From positions 1 through 29,110 of the IMG/VR virus record IMGVR_UViG_3300034374_009298: DNA of 29,110 bases, one strand, 5' to 3'. The position numbers and the translations under genes are program-made. The first letter of the stretch is position 1. Each line of letters starts with the position of its first letter. Below, piece by piece: positions 848 through 10,409 of the stretch. The notes below the pieces were generated by a model. That model was not told the origin of the DNA, made no database searches, and saw nothing but the letters and a program-made list of their open reading frames with translations. This stretch comes from a virus.

Positions 848-1096
848 GTGTCCCACCTCGGGGACCGACTTGTCCCACCTGCGAACCCGCCTGGAATCGA
901 CTTGTCCCACTTGTCCCAGGTCTGCGGGCATAGGGTGTGTGTGTGTAGAGAACTTCTTCTGGATGGCGGAAACAACGCGAGCCCTCATGAAGATGGGATC
1001 CTACCTAGGACAAGTGGGACAAGTGGGACAAGTGCATAGATAGCGGATCGACAGAGGTCCTCGGGTGGGACACGGGTGGGACAACCTGGGACAAGT
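848..1096. repeat. Inverted clusters of TGGGACA(A) iterons (candidate origin or operator)
   Basis: The roughly 300-base gap between ssb and the DUF927 gene holds ten copies of a short motif with consensus TGGGACAAGT. Four lie in 848-920, read on the minus strand. Six lie in 1004-1096, read on the plus strand: three head-to-tail at a 9-base period (1007-1033) and three spaced 11 bases apart (1065-1096). Segment 900-920 is an inverted repeat of 1004-1024 with one mismatch, around an 83-base spacer that contains a GT tract at 936-946. Unequal periods and no conserved spacers rule out CRISPR. Clustered direct repeats next to initiator-type genes suggest a replication origin. An operator controlling ssb is the alternative. 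Confidence 0.8.
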
Positions 1097-1098
1097 CC

Positions 1099-3096
1099 TC
1101 ATGCGTCACCGAGGCCGGCGGCGTCGAGGGCCTCGTCGGTGAAGCAGACCGCCCTCACCCTCGACCGGTCGAGGCGCACTCGGCACCGCCGCGAGCCCCC
1201 TCGGTCCCTTGCCAGCCATCCCCGCTCGACCCATCGGTCGATGACCCCGGGGTCGAATCCCCGGGCCCGCAGGACGTCGAGGATGACGCGCTCGAGCACG
1301 GCGACCGACCACGAGCTCGCCCGCCCCGAGCCATCGGGCCATGCCCCGAGCCAGCCTCGAGCCGGTGTGATGACCTCGCCGTGTCGGTCGGTCTCGTGCC
1401 TACCGTAGAAGCTCGTGGGGTTGGCTGCGCAGTGCTCGAGGACGGCTCGCAGGGCTTCGAGGGGCCGGTCGGCCTCGCGGGCCCCATCCCTCGCGGCCTG
1501 GATGGCCCGGTCCATCACCCCGGGGCGGGGCGGGTAGCCCACGGCCTCGACCAGGTCGCGCGCCACATCGAGCAGGGCCACGAGCCCCGCGAGCCGAGCA
1601 GCTACCGGGCCTGCATCGACGAGCTCGTCGACGTAGTAGATGAGGCGCAGTGCGTACAACGACTGCACCCTCGGCACGTTGCCGACCAGGTGCTCGAGCA
1701 CGCGGCGCCCGAGGTGACCGTAGCTGTCGAGCACCCCGAGGGTCACCGACCTCGCCTCGGCATCGCTGGACATCGGCGCCCCGGTCAGCGAGAGGCACCG
1801 AGCTCGCGAGCCTGCATCCTCCGTGAAGCTCACCGCCGGCTGCTCACCGGTCGAGAGCATCACCGAGCACCAGGTCGCCGACCTCCGCAGCCCGATGGAC
1901 TGCGCCCCCTCACCGGGGCGCGCGCGCCCCTTGGCTTGACCCTGGGAGTGCTGGTAGAGGAGCGCCGCCACATCGCTCGGATGCCGCGCGTTCTTGCTGT
2001 CGTCGAGGATGAGCGGCAGGTTGCGGAGGAAGCTCGCGAGGCCCTCGGCCCGGGCCCGCGTGGTGTTCCAGCTCTGCAGCACCGCGCCGTCGGTCGGGTC
2101 GCCCCACACCGACGCGGCTACCCGCTGGATGGTCGTCTTCCCCGTGCTCGTCTCGCCCGACCAGTCGACGACCCAGCCCCGAGCGGTGCCGCAGTGCTCG
2201 ACCAGGACGCTCGCGACGCTCGCGTAGACGGCGAGGTGCAGGTCGGGGCTCTCGACGTCCACAGCCTCGAGCCAGGCCTCCCAGGTGCCAGCGGTGCCGA
2301 GCGCGCTCGCGGCCTGCTCCTCACCGCTACCCGGGGCGACCTGCAGCGCGACCTCGCCCTCATCCCCAAACCATTCACAGCCGAGGAGGAACCCATCCCC
2401 AACCCATCCACAGCGCGAGACCACGCGCTCGAGGGGCATCGTCTCGGCATTGTGTTCGAGGGCGTCGAGGAGCCACTGCGACATGGTGGCGGCGTTGCGG
2501 GTGTGGATGCCGCCGGCCTGCGAGGAGACGGCAGAGAGTAGCGCCCGCGCGTCCGCAATGCTCGACATTCTGACGACCCGGTCATGCCACCCGCCCGACC
2601 AGCTCGGCCACGCGAGCCGCGCGTAGTGCTCGGCAGTGTCGACGTCGACGAGGCGCCCGACGGGTATCATCGGCACCTTGCTCACCTGCATGGGCTGCCC
2701 GTCGCTACCGGGACCGAAGATGCCCGAGCGCTGAACGTACCAGCCCGCCGGGGCCTGCCATCCCTCGGGCTCGATGCCGAGGCGCTCGGGGGTGATGACC
2801 GAGACCTCGCCGGTGAGCTGGCGCTTGATGGCGCTCGACAGGATGTCGCACGTCCTCGCCATCCCGCGCACCGCTCGGAGCCGCAGCAGCGCCGCAGCCC
2901 AGTAGGCCGGCTCCTGCCCTGCGAGTCGGCACGCTGCGGGCAGCAGGTCGGCGTCGAGGAGCTGCGAGGCCCTCTCGGCCCGCTCGGTGGCGGTGAGGGT
3001 CTCGACCTCCGCAAGCAGCGCCTCGATATGCGCTCGGGCCCGCTCGGCCTCTTCGTCGGTGACGAGGCGAATACCTAGGTCGTCGGAGATGCTCAT
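1099..3096 (-). CDS. DUF927-type replicative helicase / ATPase
   Basis: This 665-residue protein has a helical N-terminal part (about 1-110) and a DUF927-like P-loop core. Visible motifs are Walker A GETSTGKTT (314-322, preceded by W312), the downstream W-x-T-T block WNTTRARAEG (343-352), Walker B PLILDDS (361-367), the polar strand VMLSTGEQP (412-420) and an Arg-containing SRAR near 430. DUF927 proteins are usually fused or adjacent to phage and plasmid primases and are thought to unwind DNA at the fork. Here the primase is the separate gene immediately upstream, overlapping as ATGA, so the two probably form a split primase-helicase. ATG 3096 has a GGGGG ribosome site. The C-terminal 150 residues contain an Arg-rich, possibly DNA-binding, end. 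Confidence 0.88.
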   Translation of the reverse strand: MSISDDLGIRLVTDEEAERARAHIEALLAEVETLTATERAERASQLLDADLLPAACRLAGQEPAYWAAALLRLRAVRGMARTCDILSSAIKRQLTGEVSVITPERLGIEPEGWQAPAGWYVQRSGIFGPGSDGQPMQVSKVPMIPVGRLVDVDTAEHYARLAWPSWSGGWHDRVVRMSSIADARALLSAVSSQAGGIHTRNAATMSQWLLDALEHNAETMPLERVVSRCGWVGDGFLLGCEWFGDEGEVALQVAPGSGEEQAASALGTAGTWEAWLEAVDVESPDLHLAVYASVASVLVEHCGTARGWVVDWSGETSTGKTTIQRVAASVWGDPTDGAVLQSWNTTRARAEGLASFLRNLPLILDDSKNARHPSDVAALLYQHSQGQAKGRARPGEGAQSIGLRRSATWCSVMLSTGEQPAVSFTEDAGSRARCLSLTGAPMSSDAEARSVTLGVLDSYGHLGRRVLEHLVGNVPRVQSLYALRLIYYVDELVDAGPVAARLAGLVALLDVARDLVEAVGYPPRPGVMDRAIQAARDGAREADRPLEALRAVLEHCAANPTSFYGRHETDRHGEVITPARGWLGAWPDGSGRASSWSVAVLERVILDVLRARGFDPGVIDRWVERGWLARDRGGSRRCRVRLDRSRVRAVCFTDEALDAAGLGDA

Positions 3097-3956
3097 GTCG
3101 CCCCCAGCTCTTCGAGGTGACCACGCCACCCGCACGAGTTTTGATGTTCGCACACGGCTCGGCGAGCTCGGTGCGGGTCGATGTAGTAGTAGCAGCTCGC
3201 CCGCCCGCAGGACGGGCACGGGATGCGGCGTGCTACCTCGCCGCTTGGCCTCGTGATGACCTGCGCCCCGAGGCGCTCGGCCTGGATGCGACGGGCCTCG
3301 GGGTCGGTGCGTAGCCGTCTACGCACCTCACGCTCGACGGCCTCGGGACTGGTCGCCCACTGTCGACGACGAGCTCGGGCTCGCTCGGCTCGCTTGACCT
3401 TGGCGCGCTCGCGCTCGGCGAGGATGTGCGCGTGCTCGTCGCGTAGGTCGAGCACCTCACCGGGCTCGAATCGGGCCTCGTGCGGGCCCCCGGCACCGAT
3501 AGCCGGCAGGAAGTAGGCCCTCGACGGGTCGCAGCACTGCCGGTCAGCCTCCTCGATGCGCGCCTTGTAGAGCTCGCTCCAACCGTCGGAGGGAATGGGC
3601 GCCACGAGCGGCAGGATGACCCTGCACCTCGGCGCCTCGGCGCGGTGTGACCACGTGGTGTGCGCCACCCGCTCGAAGCCGGCCCACTGGTCGAGGGCCT
3701 CGTCGACGGTCGTGCCCCCGTCGTAGTCCAGCACGAGCGCGGTCACCTCGAGCACGTCGGCGAGTCGACGTCGGCCACCTGGTCGAAGTCGCACCGGGGA
3801 CCAGAGCGGACAGGTCGCGAGCCGCTCGGCCTTGCTCCCCTGCATCGGCCGAAAGCGCCGCAGCCCGACGGCGAGGCGGGGCCACTCGATGCGGCGCACC
3901 ACGGGGCGCGGGTCTCGGGCGTGCCGGAACCATGCGGTATCGAGTTCGAGCCTCAT
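3093..3956 (-). CDS. Archaeo-eukaryotic-primase-like protein with C-terminal zinc finger
   Basis: This 287-residue protein probably makes RNA or DNA primers for replication. A strand-rich core (about 25-150) contains LVLDYDG (74-80), whose DxD fits AEP motif I. It also has TTWSH (100-104, fitting the sxH motif), CRVILPLVAPIP (111-122) and DPSRAYFLP (143-151). These form the pattern of primase-like domains found in phages and mobile elements. A very basic, helical linker follows (180-235). The C-terminus holds a zinc-binding site, C247-x2-C250 with C269-x5-C275, beside a GWRGHL tail similar to CHC2/TFIIS-like zinc ribbons. It overlaps genes on both sides as ATGA, between an SF2 helicase and the DUF927 helicase. 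The AEP assignment is by motif spacing, not alignment. Confidence 0.75.
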   Translation of the reverse strand: MRLELDTAWFRHARDPRPVVRRIEWPRLAVGLRRFRPMQGSKAERLATCPLWSPVRLRPGGRRRLADVLEVTALVLDYDGGTTVDEALDQWAGFERVAHTTWSHRAEAPRCRVILPLVAPIPSDGWSELYKARIEEADRQCCDPSRAYFLPAIGAGGPHEARFEPGEVLDLRDEHAHILAERERAKVKRAERARARRRQWATSPEAVEREVRRRLRTDPEARRIQAERLGAQVITRPSGEVARRIPCPSCGRASCYYYIDPHRARRAVCEHQNSCGWRGHLEELGAT

Positions 3957-5611
3957 CGGGCGAGGCTCATCTGCAGGGTCGGCCAGTGCCGGCGAGCGAA
4001 GTGCAACGCGAGCGCGTCGGAGTAGTCGCCCGCCGTCTCGCCTGCGACGACGATGCCGTGCTTCGACACAGCCTCGCGCTGTCGGTCGCTCGGGGCCTGC
4101 TCGCGCCAGTCGGCCTCCCGGTGCACGAGCCCCTTGCACTGGATGAAAAGGCTCCGCCCGTAGCTCTCGGCAATCTCGCGCGATGCCGGTGCCGCCATCA
4201 GGGCGCGCACCTGCGGCGGATCCCATGGCCTGTCTCGGATGACCCGATGCGCCATCCAGTCCCGCCCGTTCGACCTCGTGACCCAGACCTGCCCTCGGGG
4301 TGTGCCCTTCTTCGACCTGCCGAGCTCGACCATGTAGGCCCGGCCTGGATGCACCTCGACCCATCGCACCGGCACGACTTGGAGCTCGGCAATGCGACGC
4401 GCGCCCCCGACCTGCTCGCGAGGCGACCCGGGCCCACCCTCGCCCGGTGTCTGGTCGAGGAGCTCGCCGACGTACTCGAGCCCGTGCGGTGTCTCGCACA
4501 GCGAGAGCACGATGCACTCGCGCTTATTCCCGTGGAGCCTCATCCCGCGACCGATGATCTGCTGCCACGAGACGACGCTCGTGACCCGGCGCGCGACGAC
4601 GACCATGTCGCACCGGGGCAGGTCGGTCCCCTCGGAGAGGGTGTCGACGTTGACCAGGGCATCCAGCTCGCCAGCCTGGAAAGCATCGAGCAGGTGCTCG
4701 CGCTCGGGTGAGCCGCTCGGGTGCTCCTCGCCGATGACCGTGGCGGCCTGCCATCCCATGCGCTGCAGGCGAGCGCAGGTGCGCTTGGCCGTCTTGACGT
4801 CCTTCGAGAACACGAGCACCGCGCGCCCCTTGTAGGGCGACATCTCGAGGGCGGTGTGCCGCACGAGCTCGTCGGTCTGCATCTCGCCGACCTCGCCCTG
4901 CTTGTCCTTGTCCTCCATCGCAAGCGCCGTCTGCGCGCTCCAGACGATGGGCACCTCGACGAGCCGAGGCGGCACGAGGAAGCCCGAGACGAGCGCTTGA
5001 TGCTGGCTGAACCGGAACGCCACCGAATCGCCCCAGGTGCCGGTCAAGTCGCGCCGGTCGGCCCGCTCCGGTGTCGCGGTCAACCCGAGCAGGTGCAGGG
5101 CGCGCCCCTCGGGCATCAGCTCTTGCAGGGCCTGCAGCAGACGGGCCCACTGGCTCTTGCCGTCGCTCGCGTAGTGATGCGCCTCGTCGAGCACGACCAG
5201 CGAAGGAGGCCCGGCCTCGAAGATGCGGCGCAGCCGCGAGCCCTCACCGAGCGGGTCTCGGGCGATGGTCGAGGTCGAGGCGAGCACGAGCCGGGCATCG
5301 TGCTCGTCCTGGTCGGCCTGGACGATGCCGGCCTCGCCGGTGCTGCCGAGCTGCGGCACCGCGCGCCACGTCTTCGCCGGCTGCATGAGGAGCTCGCCCC
5401 GGTGCGCTACCCAGAGCACGCGAGCCAAGCTCGAGCGCTGCAGCGTCGCGGCGACCATGGACAGCGCGGTGAAGGTCTTTCCTGCACCGGTCGCCATCAC
5501 GACGAGGGCGGTGCGGGTGCGCTTGTCCTGCTGCGCCCGGAACCGAGCGCGGACTGCGTCTATCGCCTCCTCCTGATAGGGGCGAAGTATCAAGTCGTGT
5601 GTTAGAGTCAC
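3953..5611 (-). CDS. SF2 DEAH-box DNA helicase (type III restriction/UvsW-like)
   Basis: This 552-residue superfamily 2 helicase hydrolyses ATP to unwind or remodel DNA. Motifs in order are a Q-like LRPYQ (9-13), Walker A MATGAGKT (39-46), Walker B LDEAHH (141-146), motif III LTATPERAD (177-185), a RecA-2 domain with LVFSKDVKTA (266-275), LSEGTDLP (325-332), and motif VI QIIGRGMR (351-358). The 150-residue C-terminal extension ends in a TAGDYSDALALHFARRHW segment like that in other phage helicases. GTG 5611 is preceded by a perfect AGGAGG at good distance, so translation starts independently of the upstream small gene, from which it is separated by a 70-base hairpin-bearing gap. The primase gene overlaps its stop. 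Confidence 0.93.
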   Translation of the reverse strand: MTLTHDLILRPYQEEAIDAVRARFRAQQDKRTRTALVVMATGAGKTFTALSMVAATLQRSSLARVLWVAHRGELLMQPAKTWRAVPQLGSTGEAGIVQADQDEHDARLVLASTSTIARDPLGEGSRLRRIFEAGPPSLVVLDEAHHYASDGKSQWARLLQALQELMPEGRALHLLGLTATPERADRRDLTGTWGDSVAFRFSQHQALVSGFLVPPRLVEVPIVWSAQTALAMEDKDKQGEVGEMQTDELVRHTALEMSPYKGRAVLVFSKDVKTAKRTCARLQRMGWQAATVIGEEHPSGSPEREHLLDAFQAGELDALVNVDTLSEGTDLPRCDMVVVARRVTSVVSWQQIIGRGMRLHGNKRECIVLSLCETPHGLEYVGELLDQTPGEGGPGSPREQVGGARRIAELQVVPVRWVEVHPGRAYMVELGRSKKGTPRGQVWVTRSNGRDWMAHRVIRDRPWDPPQVRALMAAPASREIAESYGRSLFIQCKGLVHREADWREQAPSDRQREAVSKHGIVVAGETAGDYSDALALHFARRHWPTLQMSLAR

Positions 5612-5873: not shown

Positions 5874-6121
5874 GAGTCCCCCACGAGCTCGACGGCCTCG
5901 GCCCGACCGTGCACGCTCTCGAGGGCCTCGATGGTCTGGTCGGCAAGCTCCGAACCAAGCACCACGACGACGAGGCCGCAGCGGTCGCCGTCCTCGGTCG
6001 CGAGCCCGGCCCAGCCGATGGGGCGCTCGCCCTGGATACACAGCAGCAGCGCTTGAGCCGCTCCCTCGCTCATGGCGTCGACCCAGCTCTGCAGAACGTC
6101 TTGGTCGATGTCTCGAAGCAT
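5870..6121 (-). CDS. Acidic small protein of unknown function (83 aa)
   Basis: ATG 6121 follows a clear GAGGGGG ribosome site. The 83-residue product is acidic, with an amphipathic N-terminal helix (MLRDIDQDVLQSWVDAMSEG), then strands LLLCIQGE and IGWAGLATE, a hydrophobic strand GLVVVVLG and a last helix ELADQTIEALESV. The alpha/beta alternation suggests a small compact fold. I do not recognise the family. Its first 52 bases lie inside the end of the upstream winged-helix gene in another frame, and its stop overlaps the next gene as ATGA. Strong third-position G/C supports coding. Function is unknown; an accessory or host-takeover role is only positional inference. Confidence 0.7.
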   Translation of the reverse strand: MLRDIDQDVLQSWVDAMSEGAAQALLLCIQGERPIGWAGLATEDGDRCGLVVVVLGSELADQTIEALESVHGRAEAVELVGDS

Positions 6122-6618
6122 GGTAGCCCCCTCATCGAGCGTAGCAGGTCGCGGCCCTTGTCGGTGATGGTGAGCCTTGACGGGCCCGATCCCCCGATGC
6201 CGGTGCGCTGGTGCTCGATGTCGATGTAGCCTCGCCTGATGAGGGACTGCGCCGCATTCCGCACCCGCCCCCGTCGATAACTTTTGACTTCATTCGTCAC
6301 GACCGGCCCGTCGCCCACCAGCTCGAGGAACATGGTGAGCAGGTCATCGACCTGCCCGGGCAGCCCGTGGTCGACCCACCACAGCCACCGCATGCCCTTG
6401 GCGGTGATGCGCATGTAGCTGTGTCGACGGGGCTTGCTCGGGTCGAGGGTCCACGTGATGAGCTGGTCGCGGAGGAGGCGCGTCCCGAGGCAGTCGATGC
6501 TCGAGAACGTGCGCCCGGTGTCCTCGCGGAGCTCGGCACACGACCACCCTCGACCGTCTCGCAGGGTGTCGAGCACGTCGTACCGCCCCGAGGCCTTGTC
6601 AGGTACCCGCAAGCTCAT
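6070..6618 (-). CDS. Tandem winged-helix DNA-binding protein
   Basis: This 182-residue protein appears to hold two winged-helix units. The first spans about 10-75: YDVLDTLRDGRGWSCAELRE, SIDCLGTRLLRDQLI, then the wing and SYMRITAKGMRWL. The second spans about 85-165: LLTMFLELVGDGPVVTNEV, RGRVRNAAQSLIRRGYIDI, then SRLTITDKGRDLL. Both end in the I-T-x-K-G block typical of MarR/PadR-like wings. It probably regulates early transcription or acts in replication by binding DNA. ATG 6618 overlaps the upstream nuclease stop as ATGA; the frame upstream of it is shadow sequence. The last 17 residues run beyond the fold and overlap the next gene by 52 bases, an unusually long overlap here. Confidence 0.78.
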   Translation of the reverse strand: MSLRVPDKASGRYDVLDTLRDGRGWSCAELREDTGRTFSSIDCLGTRLLRDQLITWTLDPSKPRRHSYMRITAKGMRWLWWVDHGLPGQVDDLLTMFLELVGDGPVVTNEVKSYRRGRVRNAAQSLIRRGYIDIEHQRTGIGGSGPSRLTITDKGRDLLRSMRGLPCFETSTKTFCRAGSTP

Positions 6619-7100
6619 CGACTCACCTTCCACCAGTAGCAGACGAGCGAGAGCCAGGCCTGCAGGTCGAGAGTGACGAGGGCGGCGTACTCGCCATCCC
6701 ATGCCCGCCACTGCGGCGGATGCCCGCCGCTGCTCTTCTGGTGCCAGCCCACGAGCCCGGTCGAGATGGTGTCGATAGCCAGGTCGCCCGCCCTCACCGT
6801 CACGCGCCACGGCTGCCGGTCCACGCGCCAGATGACGACAGGGCTACAGTCCCGCTCCTCCGCATCCGCGCATGCCTGCACCATGGCGGCATGGAGGTCG
6901 ACGCGGTCCTTCCTCCGCTTGCACTCGATGTGCCAGTCGTTCCAGGCCTCGACATCGCCGCACTCGACATCGGCCCCCTCGGCGCCACCGTGGCGGGACT
7001 GCGAGACGCCCCGGCGCCACTCAAGGCCGGTGAGCTCCCCGAGCACCTTGGCGAGCTCGCGCTCGCCTCGGGCTCCCTTGTCGCGCGATGCCCTACCCAC
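6615..7100 (-). CDS. PDDEXK nuclease, Holliday junction resolvase-like
   Basis: This 161-residue protein resembles phage Hjc-like resolvases. The N-terminus SRDKGARGERELAKVL carries the conserved Glu (E13 or E15). A variable loop leads to GADVECGD with D44, then HIECKRRK with E59 and K61, giving the D-ExK metal-binding core. The helix AAMVQACADA follows. Such enzymes cut branched DNA during recombination and packaging, and this one directly follows the ERF annealing protein. GTG 7100 has a GAGGTGG ribosome site and overlaps the ERF stop by eight bases. The C-terminus (about 115-161) is Trp-rich and not recognised. A simple VRR or RecB-like nuclease is the alternative. Confidence 0.85.
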   Translation of the reverse strand: MGRASRDKGARGERELAKVLGELTGLEWRRGVSQSRHGGAEGADVECGDVEAWNDWHIECKRRKDRVDLHAAMVQACADAEERDCSPVVIWRVDRQPWRVTVRAGDLAIDTISTGLVGWHQKSSGGHPPQWRAWDGEYAALVTLDLQAWLSLVCYWWKVSR

Positions 7101-10318: not shown

Positions 10319-10409
10319 CCGACACCGCGCGCCAGATGAGGAGGGCCGTCATCCACACGACACCGGCGCCCGTACAGACGCCAGCGATGTAGGACGCGAG
10401 CTCGCTCAC
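10311..10409 (-). CDS. 32-aa single-span membrane peptide (lysis region)
   Basis: GTG 10409 overlaps the upstream stop as GTGA, and the TAG stop lies inside the first codons of the metallophosphoesterase gene. The product has a short polar N-terminus, one hydrophobic helix from about residue 5 to 28 (ASYIAGVCTGAGVVWMTALL) and a polar end, RAVSDE. It is too short for most gene callers, but the tight overlaps on both sides support it. Position next to the endolysin suggests a lysis accessory, for example a small holin-like or antiholin-like peptide (inference). It shares a CTGxGxV segment with the 35-aa early membrane peptide. Confidence 0.6.
   Translation of the reverse strand: MSELASYIAGVCTGAGVVWMTALLIWRAVSDE

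Follow-up and report, generated by a model that had tools for sequence, protein, structure and literature searches.

An inverted array of TGGGACA iterons behind a DUF927 helicase gene as the probable PICI/SaPI-type replication origin of a tailed phage

The viral DNA analysed here, referred to as the window, is a stretch of 29,110 nucleotides (IMG/VR record IMGVR_UViG_3300034374_009298) whose main genes all lie on the minus strand. In order of transcription, these include an SF2 helicase (3953-5611), a separately encoded primase-like protein bearing a zinc ribbon (3093-3905; PHROG DNA primase, 9.7e-11), a DUF927 helicase of the SaPI Rep/Cch family (1099-3099), a non-coding array of short repeats (848-1096) and, beyond the array, ssb (396-794, with the Shine-Dalgarno sequence AGGAGAG). 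The likely start of the DUF927 gene is the ATG at 3099, its reading frame being open to 3219. Both neighbours of the array are those named in a preliminary description of this DNA (Pfam SSB, 1.2e-24; Pfam DUF927, 8.2e-32, the latter protein also matching PHROG primase/helicase and PDB entries 8tch and 5dgk). Since genes for a tape-measure protein and the small subunit of the terminase (TerS) are also present on the contig, together with weak matches to the terminase large subunit (TerL) and head proteins, the replicon is a phage and not a PICI satellite. Elsewhere in the window, the palindrome CGAGCTCG occurs in 52 copies (from 83 to 28723) where dinucleotide shuffles predict 3.9; the sites are evenly spread and fall in all three frames, a pattern likened to a HIP1-like highly iterated palindrome, and the relatives discussed below (L003, L028 and L196) have none.

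The array begins approximately 6 nt past the DUF927 stop codon (1099-1101) and consists of nine exact copies of the heptamer TGGGACA and one single-mismatch site, arranged in two opposed clusters. The left cluster, on the minus strand, contains an outer copy (849-855), a second copy (871-877) and an inner tandem doublet with a 9-bp period (903-909 and 912-918), all exact. The right cluster, on the plus strand, contains an inner set with a 9-bp period, in which the degenerate TAGGACA (1006-1012) is followed by exact copies at 1015-1021 and 1024-1030, and an outer set of three exact copies (1066-1072, 1077-1083 and 1087-1093), the last being the closest to the DUF927 stop codon, at about 6 nt. 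The preliminary description had counted ten iterons, four in one orientation and six in the other; the orientations hold, with the tenth copy being the degenerate one. Of the two right-hand triplets that it described, the 9-base period is correct, while the triplet given an 11-base period has real spacings of 11 and 10. Its 21-base inverted repeat with one mismatch is also present as described, with arms at 900-920 and 1004-1024 around an 83-base spacer (921-1003) carrying a GT tract at approximately 935-946, and a 22-bp version of the repeat was found as well.

The repetition is far from that expected for the composition of the DNA. The count of nine TGGGACA copies in 249 bp compares with a maximum of two when the whole window was shuffled 200 times with its dinucleotides preserved, and no 7-mer of any kind exceeded four copies in 500 shuffles of 848-1096. 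The spacer is a candidate melting region: its GC content (922-1003) is 54% as against 69% for the window, and no more than 0.5% of windows of comparable size fall below it, so that its A+T-richness is mild, being relative and not absolute. The same tendency is seen more widely: in all ten arrays with a central gap of 70-130 bp, the spacer has a lower GC content than its locus (mean difference 0.18). In several spacers (L196, L089, L003 and the window), a similar element, TAGGGTAT/AGGGTATA, lies near one iteron doublet; the version in the window is ATAGGGTGTGTG (930-945), and the element is possibly one for melting or loading. As a single strand the array folds strongly, and because this follows from the inverted repeats it is given no weight. 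No Rfam or tRNA features were found.

Among viral contigs there are few close relatives of the window helicase, and all three readable ones have an array. These relatives (L003, L028 and L196, the last a partial contig) were picked by their helicase, blind to the motif. In L196 (51% helicase identity) and L028/L197 (58%), TGGGACA arrays lie directly behind the helicase gene, with inverted TGGGACA doublets flanking 90-98 bp. The third, L003 (52% identity), keeps the order DUF927, array, ssb without any TGGGACA: its array, roughly 1 kb beyond the helicase stop, is made of 13 copies of GCCCGAC/GTCGGGC in opposed tandem doublets around a 107-bp spacer. A single-protein search had yielded only L003, which lacks TGGGACA, and non-conservation was considered on that basis; it was dropped when the GTCGGGC array was found farther downstream. 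The conservation of the array in relatives with the same genes, put forward in the preliminary description as a check, is thus borne out for position and architecture in L003, L028 and L196, and the constancy of the layout while the iteron letters differ in L003 argues against chance. The window and all three relatives share the primase and the helicase, the primase-like protein being retained along with the helicase at 36-57% identity (tblastn). On the contig of L028 (G008), the DUF927 gene is divided between the two contig ends (start at L203, end at L204), which suggests that the contig is circularly permuted.

The relatives also bear on two regulatory explanations. The preliminary description had offered, as one reading, an operator bound by the tandem winged-helix protein encoded at 6070-6618 (here 6070-6621), which would control ssb or the replication operon. 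Inverted clusters would suit a dimer, and this protein has a weak match to a PHROG transcription regulator (7.5e-5), but no convincing homologue of it was found in the three array-bearing relatives (best tblastn E-value 0.07, L196 being partial), a scan of 700-1300 for sigma-70-like promoters, the one promoter type covered, found none, and ten sites across 249 bp are large for an operator; we regard this reading as highly improbable. Alternatively, the array may be a cis-regulatory element of ssb, perhaps with autoregulation through the DUF927 protein. Some 55 bp separate the end of the array from the downstream ssb start, and the L003 array likewise lies just before ssb; in L196 and L028, however, the gene past the array is not ssb, so it is adjacency to the helicase that is kept and adjacency to ssb that is not. 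As a sole explanation this is very unlikely, although ssb regulation could coexist with an origin function.

Beyond the close relatives, the 18-mer TGGGACAAGTGGGACAAG was found in 35 viral and 46 genome stretches. Some of these matches are collagen-like GTSGTSG coding repeats (the L014-L018 class and L026), which were set aside as artefacts. They lend a little colour to the notion that the repeats are due to chance or to coding low complexity, but the array of the window is intergenic, inverted and far beyond shuffled expectation, and L003 has the same architecture with a changed sequence; the shuffles and relatives refute this explanation, and its probability is practically negligible. With the coding repeats removed, many of the matches are two-cluster arrays near the 3' side of helicase genes, the helicases being of the DUF927, VapE, DUF5906, AAA_25 and D5_N types, in phages and prophages from several phyla. 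TGGGACA itself recurs with unrelated initiator families whose hosts span several phyla.

So that the survey would not be circular, VapE and DUF927 helicases were next collected irrespective of the motif, and an array was called where one 7-mer occurred at least five times within 400 bp after the stop codon. Arrays were called downstream of 29 of 73 VapE loci, compared with 0/219 gene windows and 0/133 farther-downstream windows, and of 11 of 18 DUF927 loci, compared with 1/54 gene windows and 0/28 farther-downstream windows; as the profile seeds for both families were TGGGACA-positive loci, these exact fractions are not to be generalised. About 60% of VapE loci and 7/18 DUF927 loci fall below the threshold of five exact copies, reflecting either degenerate iterons or true absence. 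The search for arrays near DUF927 genes in other phages, which had been suggested at the outset, found them close behind DUF927- and VapE-type helicases. Seven named records with DUF927 proteins (six phages plus the SaPI-like PT1028) were also read directly, and in each of them repeats occupy the gap that follows the gene. The repeats are strong in THSA-485A, FP_Epona, phiRg507T2_3, PT1028 and P12620-1, and weaker, with four exact copies, in AC844P1 and Jekyll. Many unrelated tailed phages share this layout.

The idea of TGGGACA as a universal iteron was rejected, since it is rare in the motif-blind set and iterons vary by lineage, with TGGAACA, GTGACAA, CGGCAAC, GGGAACA, GGTTACA and others found at the same place. 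A GGN(1-2)ACA theme is seen in 14 of 28 distinct iterons, some of the 28 being shifted versions of one another, against 0.13 expected from shuffles. Some TGGGACA triplets (L005-L011, L022 and L039) have no known initiator beside them. The phage contigs of L005-L011 carry a TGGGACAAG triplet, in several cases just upstream of a TerS-like gene and frequently accompanied by a single inverted copy at a distance of 50-70 bp; a search of four of these contigs found no gene of the DUF927, AAA_25 or DUF5906 type. The L022 array (G012) is not beside an initiator, and its contig has a DUF5906-like match at a distance of approximately 5 kb.

The DUF927 helicase of the window is homologous to structurally characterised initiators, matching SaPIbov1 Rep (8tch; profile 7.5e-58, fold 2.4e-22) and SCCmec Cch (5dgk; profile 5.9e-34, fold 2.1e-21). 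AlphaFold2 models its C-terminus (1102-1356) as a strand-helix-helix-strand-strand winged helix with a core pLDDT of about 90, and this is the predicted iteron-binding domain. The best Foldseek match of the domain is the TcpK-oriT complex (probability 1.00, TM 0.62, but E-value 0.04), and it also resembles SaPIbov1 Rep with high probability and a weak E-value of 0.06. The helicase's own C-terminal winged helix is a better candidate for the reader of the iterons than the 6070-6618 protein.

Covariation between iterons and initiators points the same way. The measurement was made on VapE helicases and not on DUF927 ones such as that of the window; among the VapE proteins, iteron similarity follows C-terminal identity after correction for ATPase identity with a modest partial r of 0.21 (p 0.0002, by a Mantel-type test, a kind that can be too liberal), while the reverse correlation, of the ATPase corrected for the C-terminus, is -0.05. 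Of all 60-column windows along the VapE proteins, the last has the highest correlation (0.153, p 0.004). We take this covariation as supportive, not decisive. Within DUF927, the pairs L181/L186 and L185/L187 have near-identical C-termini (40 residues) whose differences fall mostly at the wing hairpin and close to it, and their iterons are GGTTACA and GGGAACA, respectively, hinting that the wing may set iteron specificity.

A further possibility is that the repeats are not helicase-binding iterons but start sites for priming by the phage primase, or a partition or packaging site. For priming there is a precedent in SCCmec, where the CCPol-MP primase prefers start sites within the Cch2 iterons (PMC7581432), and for packaging there are the TGGGACA triplets upstream of TerS-like genes in some marine phages. 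However, iteron sequence follows the helicase C-terminus in VapE phages, and array position in the window and its relatives is tied to the helicase gene and not to the terminase, leaving little room for this explanation, which we consider most improbable.

An origin was among the readings of the preliminary description, and it is upheld by an array that is conserved with the helicase, lies immediately 3' of an initiator of the SaPI-Rep/Cch family and matches the published PICI origin. Positions 848-1096 are very probably a PICI/SaPI-type replication origin in a tailed phage, bound by the phage's own DUF927 initiator. In the mechanism that we propose, the DUF927 protein would bind the TGGGACA iterons through its C-terminal winged-helix domain and form two opposed rings, one per inverted cluster. 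The rings would open the A+T-rich spacer, thread the single strands and turn into the replicative helicase, with the separate primase-like protein (3093-3905) priming and SSB coating the strands, so that replication would presumably start bidirectionally.

This class of design is already known; the newer points, as far as our incomplete coverage of the literature goes, are its breadth in phages and the covariation of initiator and iteron. Within that same coverage, nothing was found on the motif or on phage origins with such a layout. Joining these points, one may tentatively suggest, as a reading that we hold somewhat less probable than its negation, that the rep-iteron origin is widespread in ordinary tailed phages (with DUF927, VapE, D5_N, DUF5906 and AAA_25 initiators) and that short iterons of the GGN(1-2)ACA theme and the initiator's C-terminal winged helix are linked by a readable code. 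If this is true, the sharing of TGGGACA among unrelated initiator families could let phages and satellites recognise one another's origins or compete for them. The probable origin in the window places a design described as exclusive to PICIs in tailed phages, with a bearing on the exchange of replication modules with satellites. The covariation of iteron and C-terminus makes initiator specificity directly testable, and origins in phages known from sequence alone can be sought by a simple rule: where a helicase gene is of the DUF927 or VapE type, the DNA that directly follows it is inspected for iterons in an inverted array.

Several known systems share parts of this arrangement. Iteron plasmid origins (RepA/Rep_3, with DnaA boxes) also have short direct-repeat arrays beside an A+T-rich region, but the initiator of the window is itself an AAA+ helicase, and no DnaA-box-like match was found near the array, the single near-match in the window (at 10349) being no more than chance. 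The alpha protein of the satellite phage P4 is a fused primase-helicase with a winged-helix domain that binds short iterons at two separated sites, ori and crr. Short iterons and a winged helix, here a predicted one, are common to P4 and the window, whereas primase and helicase are fused in P4 and separate here; P4 alpha and its ori are mentioned in PMC6092414. SCCmec Cch belongs to the same DUF927 helicase family (5dgk), DUF927 having been placed in Cch, which is related to SaPIbov1 Rep (PMC7581432). For Cch2, of a different helicase family, a DNA-binding domain at the C-terminus has been shown, as have iterons downstream of the cch2 gene (PMC7581432), but its site consists of three AAGTG direct repeats in place of two inverted heptamer sets, and SCC elements are not phages.

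The closest likeness is to the PICI/SaPI origins, which have the layout for which the preliminary description knew of no named system. In PICIs, the ori directly follows the 3' end of rep and has an AT-rich region flanked by two sets of iterons, and a plasmid can be sustained by the PICI rep-ori (PMC6092414). The C-terminal domain of SaPI Rep acts on iterons downstream of its own gene, apparently as two hexamers (PMC7581432). As in SaPIbov1 and EcCICFT073 (PMC6092414), the site in the window is immediately 3' of the initiator gene, two opposed iteron sets (here four and six) surround an A+T-richer spacer, and a primase gene accompanies a helicase gene whose product is homologous to SaPIbov1 Rep (8tch). 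The SaPI-like PT1028 has the same anatomy, with the iteron AGTTCCC where the window has TGGGACA. The difference is in the replicon, which is here a phage with its own particle genes and not a helper-dependent satellite; the element itself has every testable structural feature of the PICI/SaPI origin type.
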